Shown in pieces: positions 43,881 to 50,904 of a stretch of DNA of 50,904 nt. The DNA comes from Methanobacteriota archaeon (GTDB taxonomy: Archaea > Halobacteriota > Methanosarcinia > Methanosarcinales > Methanosarcinaceae). The position numbers and the translations under genes were made by a program. Numbering within the stretch: the first letter of the stretch is position 1; every line of letters starts with the position of its first letter. The notes beneath the pieces are model-generated. The model saw only the letters and a list, made by a program, of their open reading frames with translations. It made no database searches and was not told the origin of the DNA. The stretch covers positions 1,124-52,027 of the forward strand of contig JAENYU010000029.1 of the NCBI GenBank assembly GCA_016841625.1, in the 5' to 3' direction.

Positions 43881-46800
43881 TCAACTTTGCTTCCTTGAAA
43901 CCACAAATCCGATCAGGATCATAACCGAAAGCAGCCCAAAAGACAGCAATATTTTTGTCATGCTTCCGGATGTCCCTGCACCTTCCTCCTCAACTGCCGA
44001 AGCTTCCAGTACACTGGAATTGTTTTCACTCGATACCTCGCTCGATATCCCCCTAACAATATCTTCACCTTCATCTGCCGATTCAGCAGAACCTGCAATC
44101 TCCCCCTCCGGAGAAGGGATAGTTATTGAGAAAGGCGAAAAGCCGGGCGTCTCGGCTTCAAAGTAAATATAATTGTTATCTTCCCCGACTTTACGGGTAG
44201 AAAGCTCCCCCCATTTTTCTTCACTGTACCTGCAAAGTTTTATTTCGGATTCATCTACCCCGTTTGAGGCAATCCAGGCTTTTTCCACCCTGAACCCCAC
44301 GACCGCGTTTTCAATGTTCTCCGGGCTTGCAGTCCCTGCATTCCCCACCCAGATGTTAGCGTTCCTGTAGACCATCCCTGAAGGAGGCGTTGAGACTACC
44401 TTAGAGACACCATTCAGCATCTCCACAATGGTAGTCACCTTCCCTAAACTCCGCTTAGGGTCGAAATCAACATAGGTGATGCAGGTCACATTCCGCGGGA
44501 ATCCGAATTTAACGTGGTTTCCGTTGGTTACGAACTGCTGGGAGAGTTCTTTTACTTCAACGTTGCTGGCAGGTTCGGGAGAACCGGCTCCACCGCCTCC
44601 GCCGCCACCGCCGCCGGATGATGAGGAGGATTTGGAGGAGGAGGAAGAGCCGGAAGAAGAACCGTTGCTATTCTCCGAGGAACTATCATTTTCAGGAGTA
44701 TCTGAACCAGAATTTGGATCTGGAGACCCGATATTGAAGTTTACTGTCATTTCATTAGCCGGCTCCTCCCGTTCTGCAACTTCAAAATCGGCATGTGACA
44801 CGAAAGATACCTGAACATCTCCGACCCTGTCTGCCACCCAGCTAAAAGTTTGTATGAATCCTGAGTAGGCTTCAAGTTCAGGGATATACTCAGATTTAAT
44901 TTCGACTCCGTCAACATAAAATCCAAGAGTAGAACTTCCAGCGGGTACAGGAGCCTCATTGTATACATGTACCTCAAAAGTTATCGTATCTCCTATCTTT
45001 GGGGACGAAATATCTCGAGAGACAGATTGAACCATCAAATCCGGAAGTTCAGTGGACGGGGATTCTGGATTTTCATCGTTTTCCGGCGGAAGCAGCACGG
45101 AATCAATGGCGTAGATAACTCCATCGCTTTGCTCGACCACCAGGATGACTTCTGCGTCTTCAACAAACAACCTACCATCGTCGGTTACATTGAAAGTGAT
45201 GTCTCCACCCTGTAAAGTAGAAATACTAACCAAGTTGACAACATCCGCAGCCATTAGTTTCCCATCAACCAGATGATGCAGTAAAATCTCCTTCAGCTTT
45301 TTGGTGTCACCCATCAGTGCATCTAGGGTTCCCTCAGGAAGGGCTACAAAGGCATCATTTGTCGGTGCAAAGATGGTGATGGGCCCTTCACTGCTGAGGG
45401 TTGAGGAGAGATTAGCGGCTTCAAAAGCTGAAACGAAAGTAGTAAAGCTTCCATCAGCTTCCAATGCTTCTATGACGTTTTTGATCCCTTCTTCATTATC
45501 TACATCATATACCTCGATGTAGTCGCTCTTGACCACAGAGCTACTGCCTTTTTCATTGCTTACGGTGAGGGAGACAGAATAATTCCCTGCCTGTTCATAT
45601 GTATAAACAGGATTCTGGTCTTCGGAATCTGCAGTTCCATCCGAATAAAAGTCCCAAGCCCAAGACGTTGGATTACCGGTGGATGAATCTGTAAATTGAA
45701 CTGTCAGTGGAGCGTAACCCCAGGTGAGGTCTGCTGTGAGATCCGCAACCGGAAGTGGGACGTCACCAGAACCGTCAGAAACGCTTCCTGTGAGCCACCT
45801 GACAATATTTAATGCAAGGACATCATTTTCATACTCATTAAAGTTCGGAATCCCGTCATTGTCAAGATCCATATTGTCAAAAGCATTGGAATCCGGCACA
45901 ATTACAACTTTTTCCTGTGACGAATAAGCAATCACAGGCTGCGAGCCCATGGTTTCCCCGGAATCGTACACCTTATCATTGTCAGCCTCCAGCCAGCTAT
46001 CCTCATCCGAGTACCCAACCCCTATTACTTTCCCGGCAACATTTGCAGCGGGGACATACCCTCCGTCATACATTACTATCCGGTTTACATTTTCAGTTAT
46101 GGGATGGGGAGAGAAACTTTTGATTATAACCCATTCCGCATCTCCCTCATTATCTGTCGCATCGCATAAGATGTATTGGCCATACCACTCAACAGAACTT
46201 CCTCCGGATGAGAGGTCATCAAAAAGATGTGTTATTTCATTAACTAAACCTATTGTCCCTCCAGCCAAAAACAATCCCCTGTCTAGGTTCACAACAAAGT
46301 TTTGAATGGCCGACTTTTCCTCATCCAAAAGAGATTCCTCAAGTGCAACTATTATCAGTGCATCGTACCCATTCAATTTTTCCGGGGTAATGGGACGGGA
46401 AATCTGATCAACTGTGTAACCTTCGGCTTTCAATGCATCCGAATAATAAGAAAGCCCGGTTTTTGTCATGCTCGCGTCGGAGATGTATTTGGAAGTGCTG
46501 TAAATAGCAATTTTCGTATCCTGTGGCAACGGATCTCCTTGTACACTAAGATCAAGGACTTTCTGCCGCACAACATCACCTTTAATAGCCTCCGTGACTA
46601 AGCGATAATTACCTCCCTGCGTCAACTGGGAGGATTTGCCTGTATAAAGACCGCCCCCCCCGTTATTCAAAACGATGTTTTCAATAGTACTTCCATTCAA
46701 TTTGAGTTCGGCATTAACACTGGCGTTTTCTATGCCGCCAATATCGTCAAACAGTTCAACTGTGACATTAACTATGTCACCAGTTGAATAATCTGTTTTA

Positions 46801-48740
46801 TCAGTGCTTGCTGACAACTTAGTAGAAGTACTTGCAGATATTGTAAGGGTATAATCTTCCTCCCCGATTACATCCGCAGCATACACATCATATGACCAGT
46901 TCCCAGAAATTGCATTATATACTTTATAAATTTCATATGTGTCCGACGGAATATAAGTGATATTCGGATCTACTGTGCCACTGGTGCTACTAGGGTCAGT
47001 CTGGACCTTTGTGCCGTCCGGATAGTACAGTACGAGATCAAGGTCACTTCCAGGCCATGTAAGCAGGAAATCCATGAAATCCACTGAATCATCAACTTTT
47101 GCAGCACCCTGAAGAGTTTCCCCCTGAGAGATCTTGCCGGAATCTTCCTTCAACTGAACCTTCCCTGTTATAGACTGACCAATTCGGTTATAGATATCCT
47201 GAAGGACAGCATTTGTGGGTGCATCGTAGAATTCTCCCCCGGTTTCATCGGCTATTTTTTTAAGAGTGTCTCTATCCGCCTCACCAGAAAGAGCAATCGT
47301 ATAGATAGGCCATCCTTTAGACTTATATTCAGGGACTATTGAATATATGGGGTTAAGTCCTCTATTGGAATAACCATCAGAAAGCAAAATTGCAGCCTTT
47401 TGATTAGTAGGAACTGCATTGGGTCCATTCAATTGTTCATATCCGACCTGCAATCCGTCATTTATATTAGTGTAACCATCTGAATCTATCCCATTCACAG
47501 CAGATTTAAGATCAAAGATGTTATCCCCCACTGGGCATAATTCTTTCAGCAAAGTGACTGAGTCATCAAAATCCACTACTGTCACTTGATCATTTTTATG
47601 TGCCAGATCGATGAACATTTTTGCAGCGCTTTTTCTCATATCTTCGGGATCATTTTCATTCATACTCCCGGAACTGTCGATTACGAGGGCAATATCAGCA
47701 TTTTGAAAATTATCAGAATCTTCATTATCTTTTGCCTCCACTGCTTTTATGGTAATCCATTTTGCATAATAGCCCTCGGGGTCTACAGAACCTTTATCTG
47801 GGCTTATTACAGGGTTATAGCCTACATCAGGAGTGTCTAAAGCAGCCCTCCAACCTAAATTATAAGTTCCAGGTTTCGTCGCCCTGACATAAAGTTGTGA
47901 AAAACCAACATAACCATTTGAGTTTACAGGAGACTTCAAAGCCTCAACTCGATAACCGTAAGAACGTTTAGTGCCTTTGTTCCGGTAGATTATCTTAGAG
48001 CCGGATAACCCCTCTGGGTCGAAAAGTTCCAAATTAGGAGAGTCTGTAATAATCGTAACATTTCCTATACCCGCCTCCCCACCTTCATTATAGATTTGTA
48101 TATTCATTCCCTGAATAATCTCATTTACCTTTACTGTGGATGTGCTTGCGTGAACTGGTTCCAAACTCCAATGTATAGAAGGTGGAGGAGTTATTTCGAT
48201 TTTTTTATTTTCGGATCTCACCCAATCGTCACTAGGTTTAATAAAAAAACCCGGAGATGGAGTTGTTTTTACTTTAATGTAATAATCACCACTAGTAGGT
48301 ATAGAACATACTTCAGCATATTTTAACTCAATGAAATAATTGGCTGCTTCTTCATAATCCGTATATTTTTTTGAGCCTTCTTCAGTTGTAACTGTATAAG
48401 AACTAAAATCTGGAGAATGATAAAAACTGTGTGTAAACTTCTTTGAACCAATGAATTCGTTGGATCCAAATACATCTTTATAAACTTCCACTTCAAACTC
48501 GATTGAACCACTAGTACCTTTAGGTGGTTTCGTGTCGAAAATAGCATCAGCTTTAATGAGATCGATTGTAGAAATGGTAGGTCTACTTGATATTGATACA
48601 TCTTTTGCTACTGCTGCACCTGCCAAATCAACAACTGAAATTGACAAAAATATAATAGTTACAAAGCATAGATTTGTAGATACAAAAAATTTAAAAAATT
48701 TCTTTGAACGAATGAAATAATTTATATCATTTACGATCAA
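43881..48740 (-). CDS. giant multidomain surface protein (VWA, PKD, fasciclin, CARDB, PGF-pre-PGF)
   Basis: A 1619-aa exported protein. A signal peptide (about 15-45) is followed by a beta-rich region, a VWA domain (about 348-535, metal site DSSGSMNEND), a pre-peptidase-like beta domain (about 560-640), an amidotransferase-like domain (about 737-900), a PKD domain (about 998-1085), a fasciclin domain (about 1087-1218), a CARDB-like domain (about 1227-1333), a Ser/Gly linker with nine consecutive Gly (about 1370-1385), a PGF-pre-PGF domain (about 1388-1545) and a C-terminal membrane helix. It should be displayed on the S-layer side for adhesion or binding. Nearly identical tracts are shared with the gene at 49844. 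It is convergent with the ECF operon. Confidence 0.9.
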   Translation of the reverse strand: MIVNDINYFIRSKKFFKFFVSTNLCFVTIIFLSISVVDLAGAAVAKDVSISSRPTISTIDLIKADAIFDTKPPKGTSGSIEFEVEVYKDVFGSNEFIGSKKFTHSFYHSPDFSSYTVTTEEGSKKYTDYEEAANYFIELKYAEVCSIPTSGDYYIKVKTTPSPGFFIKPSDDWVRSENKKIEITPPPSIHWSLEPVHASTSTVKVNEIIQGMNIQIYNEGGEAGIGNVTIITDSPNLELFDPEGLSGSKIIYRNKGTKRSYGYRVEALKSPVNSNGYVGFSQLYVRATKPGTYNLGWRAALDTPDVGYNPVISPDKGSVDPEGYYAKWITIKAVEAKDNEDSDNFQNADIALVIDSSGSMNENDPEDMRKSAAKMFIDLAHKNDQVTVVDFDDSVTLLKELCPVGDNIFDLKSAVNGIDSDGYTNINDGLQVGYEQLNGPNAVPTNQKAAILLSDGYSNRGLNPIYSIVPEYKSKGWPIYTIALSGEADRDTLKKIADETGGEFYDAPTNAVLQDIYNRIGQSITGKVQLKEDSGKISQGETLQGAAKVDDSVDFMDFLLTWPGSDLDLVLYYPDGTKVQTDPSSTSGTVDPNITYIPSDTYEIYKVYNAISGNWSYDVYAADVIGEEDYTLTISASTSTKLSASTDKTDYSTGDIVNVTVELFDDIGGIENASVNAELKLNGSTIENIVLNNGGGGLYTGKSSQLTQGGNYRLVTEAIKGDVVRQKVLDLSVQGDPLPQDTKIAIYSTSKYISDASMTKTGLSYYSDALKAEGYTVDQISRPITPEKLNGYDALIIVALEESLLDEEKSAIQNFVVNLDRGLFLAGGTIGLVNEITHLFDDLSSGGSSVEWYGQYILCDATDNEGDAEWVIIKSFSPHPITENVNRIVMYDGGYVPAANVAGKVIGVGYSDEDSWLEADNDKVYDSGETMGSQPVIAYSSQEKVVIVPDSNAFDNMDLDNDGIPNFNEYENDVLALNIVRWLTGSVSDGSGDVPLPVADLTADLTWGYAPLTVQFTDSSTGNPTSWAWDFYSDGTADSEDQNPVYTYEQAGNYSVSLTVSNEKGSSSVVKSDYIEVYDVDNEEGIKNVIEALEADGSFTTFVSAFEAANLSSTLSSEGPITIFAPTNDAFVALPEGTLDALMGDTKKLKEILLHHLVDGKLMAADVVNLVSISTLQGGDITFNVTDDGRLFVEDAEVILVVEQSDGVIYAIDSVLLPPENDENPESPSTELPDLMVQSVSRDISSPKIGDTITFEVHVYNEAPVPAGSSTLGFYVDGVEIKSEYIPELEAYSGFIQTFSWVADRVGDVQVSFVSHADFEVAEREEPANEMTVNFNIGSPDPNSGSDTPENDSSSENSNGSSSGSSSSSKSSSSSGGGGGGGGGAGSPEPASNVEVKELSQQFVTNGNHVKFGFPRNVTCITYVDFDPKRSLGKVTTIVEMLNGVSKVVSTPPSGMVYRNANIWVGNAGTASPENIENAVVGFRVEKAWIASNGVDESEIKLCRYSEEKWGELSTRKVGEDNNYIYFEAETPGFSPFSITIPSPEGEIAGSAESADEGEDIVRGISSEVSSENNSSVLEASAVEEEGAGTSGSMTKILLSFGLLSVMILIGFVVSRKQS

Positions 48741-49135: not shown

Positions 49136-49227
49136 GAGCCTATCCAAAAAGTAGAAAAACTACGATGTATGGTAATGTTTAGTAGTGACAACACGAAAAA
49201 ACGGACCTGACTACGAGATACCTTTTA
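49136..49227 (+). mobile_element. probable left end of an IS5-like element remnant
   Basis: GAGCCTATCCAAAAAGT at 49136-49152 resembles the terminal repeat of IS5-like elements, whose ends often begin GAGCCTxTCC. A GTAG-AAAAA-CTAC hairpin follows. The segment runs to the TIR element at 49228, which splits it from the transposase start at 49512. No matching right end is visible. Confidence 0.5.
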
Positions 49228-49512
49228 CATTTCGACCCCCCTTTCAAAAATGAGGTGATTTTTGCAGCAACTAATCATATTTATTAAATCTGTTGTAGAC
49301 ACAAGCCCAAAAAAATCGATGATTTTGGCTGAATTCCACAATTCTCCAAAAACTCCTGGCGAAATTCATAAAAAATATCATGAAGTTGACATATTTTTCA
49401 GTGATATCTCATGGAAGGTTGAATAATTAATTAAGAAGATAGGGCAAAATGAACACCGAACTGTGTGAATAAAAAAATTAAGTAGCTTTTTTTGGTGGGG
49501 GGTCGAAATGTA
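49226..49512 (+). mobile_element. 283-bp TIR element with TA duplication (MITE-like)
   Basis: CATTTCGACCCCCC (49228-49241) and GGGGGGTCGAAATG (49497-49510) are perfect 14-bp inverted repeats, flanked by TA on both sides, as expected of IS630/Tc1-type insertion. The flanking DNA rejoins to put ATG ATA CCT at the start of the broken transposase, so the insertion occurred at that gene's TATG start. The inside has one 54-codon frame and no transposase. It is a good candidate for a non-autonomous element. Confidence 0.65.
49262..49426 (+). CDS. possible 54-aa protein inside the TIR element
   Basis: A frame from TTG 49262 (preceded by GAGGTG at 6-8 nt) to TAA 49424. The product is small and protein-like, with a hydrophobic start (QQLIIFIKSVV), a helix resembling winged-helix proteins (SMILAEFHNSPKTPGEIHKKYH) and an aromatic end (DIFFSDISWKVE). 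It is not recognised. It may be a passenger gene of the element, a truncated regulator or chance. Low confidence. Confidence 0.3.
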   Translation: MQQLIIFIKSVVDTSPKKSMILAEFHNSPKTPGEIHKKYHEVDIFFSDISWKVE

Positions 49513-49717
49513 TGATACCTGACAAATTCTGGAATCAAATAGAACCATTACTGCCACTACCTAAGCCAAAAAGGAAACTTGTAAGACCTAGAAAAGATGA
49601 TAGGAAAATAATGAGTGGTATTTTTATCTCCTTCGTACAGGCTGACAATGGAAAGCATTGCCAAGATGTTATGGAGTTCCAAACACTGTACATGACAGAT
49701 TTCAGGAATGGCAATAA
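49512..49717 (+). pseudogene. IS5-like transposase N-terminal fragment, frameshifted
   Basis: The first 38 codons (PDKFWNQIEPLLPLPKPKR ... KIMSGIF) match the N-terminal helix-turn-helix (DUF4096) of IS5-like transposases. One base is missing after GIF (about 49622-49626). In the next frame the text continues as YLLRTG, then a TGA in place of the expected Cys, then QWKALPRCYGVPNTVHDRF and a TAA at 49715. So it carries a 1-nt deletion and a nonsense change. The DDE domain is absent. Confidence 0.8.
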
Positions 49718-49721
49718 GTAA

Positions 49722-49847
49722 TCAAACTTGCCGCCAATACTCATTGAAAGAAACAGCATTAATAATTCGATTGATGCAACCGGAATTATCGGTTCTTATG
49801 CAAACAACTATTGTTCAAAAAAAATCAAAAAAGGAAGCAAGCCTTAA
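49722..49847 (+). pseudogene. possible fragment of a DDE transposase
   Basis: Directly after the previous fragment, one frame reads NNSIDATGIIGSYANNYCS and ends at TAA 49845. SIDATGI plus an aromatic-rich follow-up resembles the first catalytic Asp region of DDE_Tnp_1 (IS5/IS1182-like) transposases. It may be the internal part of the same element after a deletion, or a second element. Weak evidence. Confidence 0.35.
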
Positions 49848-50904
49848 ACCCGCTTCCTTGAAACCAGATACCCGCCCAACATCACAACCGAAAGCAAAAC
49901 GATCCAGGTGAATATTTTCGATTTGCCCCCTGAAACCGGAGACTTACCAGCATCCTCTTCTGGCTCAGAAGACTCAACTCCCGAAGCTTCGGTACCTTCA
50001 GCTATCACTTTTGTCTGATCCGAATCCACAGTAGAGACAGGAGACTTCTCGTCCTCCCCTCCATCGGCTCCGGAAACAGAAGCTTCAGGCACTGTTATCG
50101 CAAATAGCGAAAATCCGGGCGTTTCGGCTTCAAAATAAACGTACCTGTCATCTTCCCTGACTTTCCGGGTAGAAAGCTCACCCCACTTTTCTTCACTGTA
50201 CCTGCAAAGTTTTATTTCGGATTCATCTACCCCGTTTGAGGCAATCCAGGCTTTTTCCACCCTGAACCCCACAACTGCGTTTTCAATGTTCTCCGGGCTT
50301 GCAGTCCCTGCATTCCCCACCCAGATGTTTGCATGGCTGTAAACCATGCCCGACGGAAGTTCGGGGACAATCTTAGACTGTCCTTTCAGCATTTCAACAA
50401 CCGTGGTCACCTTTCCCATACTCCGCTTAGGGTCAAATTCAACGTAGGCGATACAGGTCACGTTCCTCGAGAATTCAAACTTGACATGATTGCCATTGGC
50501 TATAAATTCCTGGGAGAGTTCTTTTACTTCAACGTTGCTGGCAGGTTCGGGAGAACCGGCTCCTTTGCCGATGGAAGAGGAACTGGAAGAGGAAGAAGAG
50601 GTACTGGGACTTTTCACGGAAAATGACTCTACTTTTTCATTATTTTCTTCCTCATATTCAAGAACCTGACTATCCGCATCTGCAACAGCCCTTATATTCA
50701 GGTTTCCTGAAGCCGGTGGAACCCAGTCAAATATAAAGGAAGTATTTGAGCCTGCTTCAAGTCCGGAAATTGAATCTGAAGATACTTCATTCCCATCAAT
50801 ATAGCATTTTACACCGAAACTTCCGGAAGGTCTGGAACCCTCATTTAGTAACCTTAACTCCATAATTTTGTAGGGAATATACTCACTTTTGTTGAGGATT
50901 CTAT
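49844..50904 (-). CDS. PGF-pre-PGF surface protein, N-terminus beyond window
   Basis: The C-terminal 350 or so residues of an exported protein; the frame stays open through the right edge (the residues before the first in-window Met, ILNKSEYIPYKIMELRLL, continue the fold). A CARDB-like domain, a Ser run of ten, a PGF-pre-PGF domain (SPEPASNVEVKELSQEF ... FEAETPGFSLFAI), an acidic linker and a membrane helix (FTWIVLLSVVMLGGYLVS) with an RKR tail are seen. It is a paralogue of the C-terminus of the giant surface protein, with tracts of nearly identical DNA. It likely sits on the cell surface with the anchor in the membrane. Confidence 0.85.
   Translation of the reverse strand, partial: RILNKSEYIPYKIMELRLLNEGSRPSGSFGVKCYIDGNEVSSDSISGLEAGSNTSFIFDWVPPASGNLNIRAVADADSQVLEYEEENNEKVESFSVKSPSTSSSSSSSSSIGKGAGSPEPASNVEVKELSQEFIANGNHVKFEFSRNVTCIAYVEFDPKRSMGKVTTVVEMLKGQSKIVPELPSGMVYSHANIWVGNAGTASPENIENAVVGFRVEKAWIASNGVDESEIKLCRYSEEKWGELSTRKVREDDRYVYFEAETPGFSLFAITVPEASVSGADGGEDEKSPVSTVDSDQTKVIAEGTEASGVESSEPEEDAGKSPVSGGKSKIFTWIVLLSVVMLGGYLVSRKRV

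Follow-up and report, generated by a model that had tools for sequence, protein, structure and literature searches.

The window, that is, the whole 50,904-nucleotide stretch of DNA that was analysed, contains a 291-bp MITE at positions 49224-49514. The element very probably belongs to a Methanosarcinaceae family of ~290-bp MITEs moved by cut-and-paste, or by a related DDE reaction, by an IS1634-family transposase whose own element has the same 17-bp ends. The family is a genuine non-autonomous one, being short, multicopy and without a transposase gene. The biology is ordinary, with a mobile element sitting within the remnant of another. The analysis corrects a plausible yet wrong family call. 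It also pairs a Methanosarcinaceae MITE, on good evidence, with an IS1634 element that shares its 6-bp duplication, and this pair is usable for a transposition test.

The MITE family and its probable IS1634-family partner

The element reads TTTACATTTCGACCCCCC...GGGGGGTCGAAATGTATG, its orientation being arbitrary. Its extent was taken from an alignment of 27 copies, with 6-bp duplications fixing each end 4 bp beyond CATTTC. The left terminal inverted repeat (TTTACATTTCGACCCCCC, 49224-49241, plus strand) is identical to the end of 2,084-bp IS1634-family elements and pairs at 16 of 18 bp with the right repeat (49497-49514, minus strand reading CATACATTTCGACCCCCC). The 14-bp inverted repeats described in an earlier, sequence-only reading are perfect: CATTTCGACCCCCC occupies 49228-49241, its complement lies at 49497-49510, and 255 bp separate the two. 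With the flanking TA they reach 16 bp, and a repeat search lengthens them to 25 bp at 84%. The 283-bp unit proposed in that reading is 8 bp shorter than the element. The inverted repeats do not reflect chance, as ends and interior recur across many genomes.

No conserved ORF is present in the interior across the 27 copies, whose reading frames differ from one to another; the absence of a transposase, suggested from the single copy, is thus confirmed. A conserved small protein encoded by the MITE was rejected because frames are not maintained from copy to copy, and an RNA family was rejected for lack of a credible Rfam match in the element. The sole weak Rfam hit, mir-4423, is far below the gathering score and lies outside the MITE. 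As single-stranded DNA the element folds more strongly than its shuffles (z -2.7), as the terminal repeats would lead one to expect.

Searches with the 283-bp core, of the kind that the sequence-only reading had proposed, hit the window's own genome at two places over the full length (100% and 87% identity) and find copies in related genomes. Two genomes of the same genus (G002 and G003) carry two full-length copies each at 86-99%, and many more belong to another genus of the family, g13; there G081, G104 and G085, for instance, give six matches apiece, mostly with identities of 71-82%. The MITE family occurs in at least ten Methanosarcinaceae genomes besides this one, at 71-99% identity; standard copies measure 287-292 bp, with up to 6 matches per genome outside this one. 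Among the relatives are Methanosarcina sp. KYL-1, Methanosarcina spelaei and Methanosarcina sp. 2.H.T.1A.6, and the MAGs UBA9310 and BM5_bin.6. A search of plasmids, phages and viral contigs found no copies. Four matches to a 17-mer in unrelated bacteria are compatible with chance, given the size of the collection.

Exact matches to ACATTTCGACCCC were listed over 112 genomes of the family. Pairs of matches ~2,075 bp apart (2,074-2,081) occur in G081 (two), G104 (two), G083 and G001 (one, with one terminal base altered). The paired-end loci are complete 2,084-bp IS elements (L099-L103, L121/L157) with ends TTTACATTTCGACCCCC and a 589-aa transposase, which scores 225.6 bits against the NCBIfam IS1634 model (NF033559, cut-off 100, E = 1.3e-66) and also matches Pfam DUF4277. 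Elements of the IS1634 family have been described (PMC2266710) as 1.5-2 kb long, with ends that are poorly conserved and AT-rich duplications of 5-6 bp. A full-length IS630-family relative with the same ends had been proposed as something to look for; the full-length elements found are IS1634. Together with the copies at other sites and the empty sites described below, this matching autonomous IS upholds the earlier proposal of a non-autonomous MITE family.

Only G104, G081, G083 and G001 have close full-length copies of the transposase; G093 has a partial relative at 72%. The copy in G083 carries a frameshift, and an intact one is found in G001, of the same genus as the window's genome. In G002 two contig ends lie inside this element, which is what an unassembled multicopy repeat would produce. 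In the assembly of the window's genome there is neither such an element nor a contig that stops in one. An autonomous partner in the same genome is usual, though not required, for IS1634-derived MITEs, and its absence from the assembly makes present-day mobility of the MITE here doubtful. The only IS1634 here, on contig C15, is 30% identical, has a stop codon and was rejected as the partner, since its ends (TGCTTTCGGCAG) differ. An IS1634 element of G083 that neighbours a short same-ended piece (L025/L068) was likewise rejected, the ends of its group being ATCCGACTTTCCGCAGAT; the neighbourhood is probably coincidental. We note that the IS1634-family element of another group at L068:2204-5403 in G083 has an MHITTN-type transposase (DUF4277) interrupted by an apparent IS66-type element.

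The first 18 bases of the MITE are identical to the left end of one autonomous copy (L102), and 17 to its right end. The two elements share the 17-bp terminal repeat and an AT-rich 6-bp duplication, but the IS has the 589-aa transposase, and their interiors, inward of the 17-18-bp repeat, are almost unrelated. At one end the MITE bears a marginal resemblance to the transposase-proximal IS end (P about 0.01 in a set of twelve comparisons), which is a weak signal. Such unrelated interiors, and the occurrence in these genomes of another short repeat with similar ends, could mean that the MITE is moved by a different autonomous element with MITE-like subterminal sequence, and that IS1634 shares the outer repeats by common descent. 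We consider this improbable. Among the end matches read out over the 112 genomes, the IS1634 elements are the only exact pairs at full-IS spacing, and they agree with the MITE in both ends and in duplication length. Furthermore, archaeal MITEs commonly have only the end repeats, generally <20 nt, in common with their partners (PMC3852290).

IS1634-type MITEs are already known from Methanosarcina (PMC3852290). In Table 4 of that paper, the one relevant table that literature searches brought up, M. barkeri has an ISMba11-type MITE (247 bp, 23 copies, IR 20, DR 6) and M. acetivorans an ISMac10-type one (249 bp, 15 copies, IR 18, DR 0). Both share with the present family the host and IS families, the size class, the length of the end repeats and the ends-only likeness to the partner, and the ISMba11 type also the 6-bp duplication. 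They measure 247-249 bp against 291 bp here, and on this comparison of published descriptions the present family is new or at least separately sized.

Target duplications and empty sites

The MITE in the window is flanked by exact copies of ATACCT at 49218-49223 and 49515-49520, a motif that is single in four MITE-free relatives of the interrupted IS5-like element. Empty sites were sought with joined flanks against four genomes of the genus. One of the relatives without a MITE at the site is in this genome (L054); the others are L052, L045 and L049. L054 reads GACTACGAGATCTCAGACGAATTCTGG, and the pre-insertion equivalent of the window is GACTACGAGATACCTGACAAATTCTGG. With the element and one ATACCT removed, the window aligns to each of the four with 2 gap positions and no internal gap. 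MITE-free orthologous flanks are also found for two further copies, L010 (in L048) and L011 (in L041 and L038).

These sites decide against the sequence-only reading, in which a MITE of the IS630/Tc1 type had entered the IS5-like transposase gene at its start codon and duplicated a TA target. Each perfect 14-bp repeat does have a TA immediately beyond it, and TA..TA flanks are seen in 24 of 34 complete insertions. However, taking out the core and one TA, which was expected to restore the host, leaves 14 gap positions, that is, 12 extra bases, against all four relatives. Empty sites, which that reading had proposed to compare, do exist; in the four relatives ATACCT is not duplicated. The TA flanks are termini of the MITE and no target duplication, and the IS630/Tc1 account, to which we attach almost no probability, is refuted by the empty sites. 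It also conflicts with the ten insertions without TA..TA (e.g., CTCA..TGAG and TTTA..CAAA), which include L022 and L121 with clean 6-bp duplications, and with the IS1634, not IS630, transposase encoded by the full-length elements that have these ends. The present family is like IS630/Tc1-mariner MITEs in being short and non-coding, with terminal inverted repeats and, in many copies, a TA by the perfect repeat; it differs in having a 6-bp rather than a TA duplication and an IS1634 partner. Element termini of the form TTTA..TAAA mimic a TA duplication, and the true ends can be set only with empty sites or copies with other termini.

The 34 distinct complete insertions comprise 28 of MITE type and 6 autonomous elements. 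An exact 6-bp duplication is found in 16, every one 4 bp outside CATTTC; with shuffled right flanks the mean is 0.56 and the maximum 5 in 5000 shuffles. All six autonomous elements have perfect duplications, as do 10 of the 28 MITE-type insertions, and the duplicated hexamers are 79% A+T. The other 18 MITE-type insertions have no exact 6-bp duplication, which counts against the model; decay, mis-set ends or recombination may be the causes. As for the IS1634 end consensus C-----YT, copies starting CTCACATT fit it; most copies and the autonomous elements start with T (TTTACATT).

In the IS1634-based mechanism that we infer, the transposase would act on the MITE in trans, recognising TTTACATTTCGACCCCC at both of its ends. 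The MITE would then be joined to an AT-rich target cut with a 6-bp stagger, and repair by the host would turn the stagger into the 6-bp duplication. In the window the insertion point follows codon 13 of the IS5-like transposase gene, in a copy that is now also frameshifted and truncated. The 342-bp copies of G081, described below, occur alongside intact autonomous copies and lend indirect support to mobilisation in trans.

The interrupted IS5-like element

The host is a DUF4096-type IS5-like element unrelated to the MITE, and the copy in the window is truncated. Its 5' part (49136-49223, plus strand) comprises the end repeat GAGCCTATCCAAAAAGTA, the leader, a GTG start at 49185-49187 and the first 13 codons, with 85-87% identity to positions 1-84 of the four complete relatives. 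The remainder (49521-49714, plus strand) is 82-86% identical to them, and the match stops at 49714. The complete relatives are ~856 bp long with ends GAGCCTATCCGAAAAGTA and a transposase of ~270 aa. The window copy has a 1-bp deletion that causes a frameshift, and nothing is left beyond ~position 283 of 856; for these reasons it is a remnant independently of the MITE. It gives a weak match to Pfam DUF4096, just under the curated cut-off.

In the relatives, the transposase frame reads through the site from the upstream GTG, equivalent to 49185 in the window, where the MITE follows codon 13 (MTTRKNGPDYEIP|DKFW). The insertion was therefore not at the start codon, as had been supposed. The apparent ATG at 49512 comes from the terminal TATG of the right MITE end, which is part of the element because the same terminus is found in copies L009, L010 and L011 at unrelated sites. 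The nested insertion itself stands. A reading of the segment as a leader native to the IS5-like element, which its position between that element's end and most of the coding region might suggest, is refuted by the four related copies without it, in three of which the frame crosses the site uninterrupted, and by the segment's presence at unrelated sites elsewhere.

The insertion lies between two minus-strand genes (43881-48740 and 49844 onwards), and no functional gene is visibly affected by it. The products of these genes (43881-48740 and 49844-50902) have closely similar C-terminal regions, from GSPEPASNVEVKELSQ... to a C-terminal membrane anchor, which places the remnant and the MITE between tandem paralogues of large surface-type proteins.

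Composite and related forms

The most unusual observation is a set of composites in which the MITE has 51 or 65 extra bp outside its left end, resembling an IS1634 left end. They are found in two genomes, with four copies in G081 (L035 at G081:C1:269205-269540, L027, L105 and L014) and one in G002 (L012/L046 at G002:C30:5506-5853). The duplications lie outside the extra piece: TTTCAG, ATTTAC, ATAGAA and the 5-bp ATGAA in G081, and TTACAT in G002. The G081 composite is a 342-bp unit whose four copies each have their own duplication. These forms imply recent mobility in G081, a genome with intact autonomous copies, and the differing extra lengths suggest two separate events. It is conceivable, though we would hold it rather unlikely, that the MITE has repeatedly captured ends, with 51 or 65 terminal bp taken from an IS1634-like left end, and that the G081 composite then spread while its buried end decayed. 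If so, capturing fresh transposase-matched ends could keep MITEs mobile while their autonomous partners diverge.

Other forms were seen in the same genomes. One MITE copy (L030, G085:C128:6616-7335) is split near position 190 by ~440 bp of other sequence in an insertion-like manner. A short repeat with the similar end CATTTCGACCCCCTGCCAATA and a different interior occurs at L008 (G000:C15:4092-4106), L072 (G002:C13:20352), L070, L092 and L089, and may represent a second MITE family. G104 (L015:298-420) and G083 (L068:5534-5657) have mini-elements 123-124 bp long, bounded by similar ends; that in G104 has a 6-7-bp duplication, TTTGAAT, and that in G083 resembles an internally deleted MITE.
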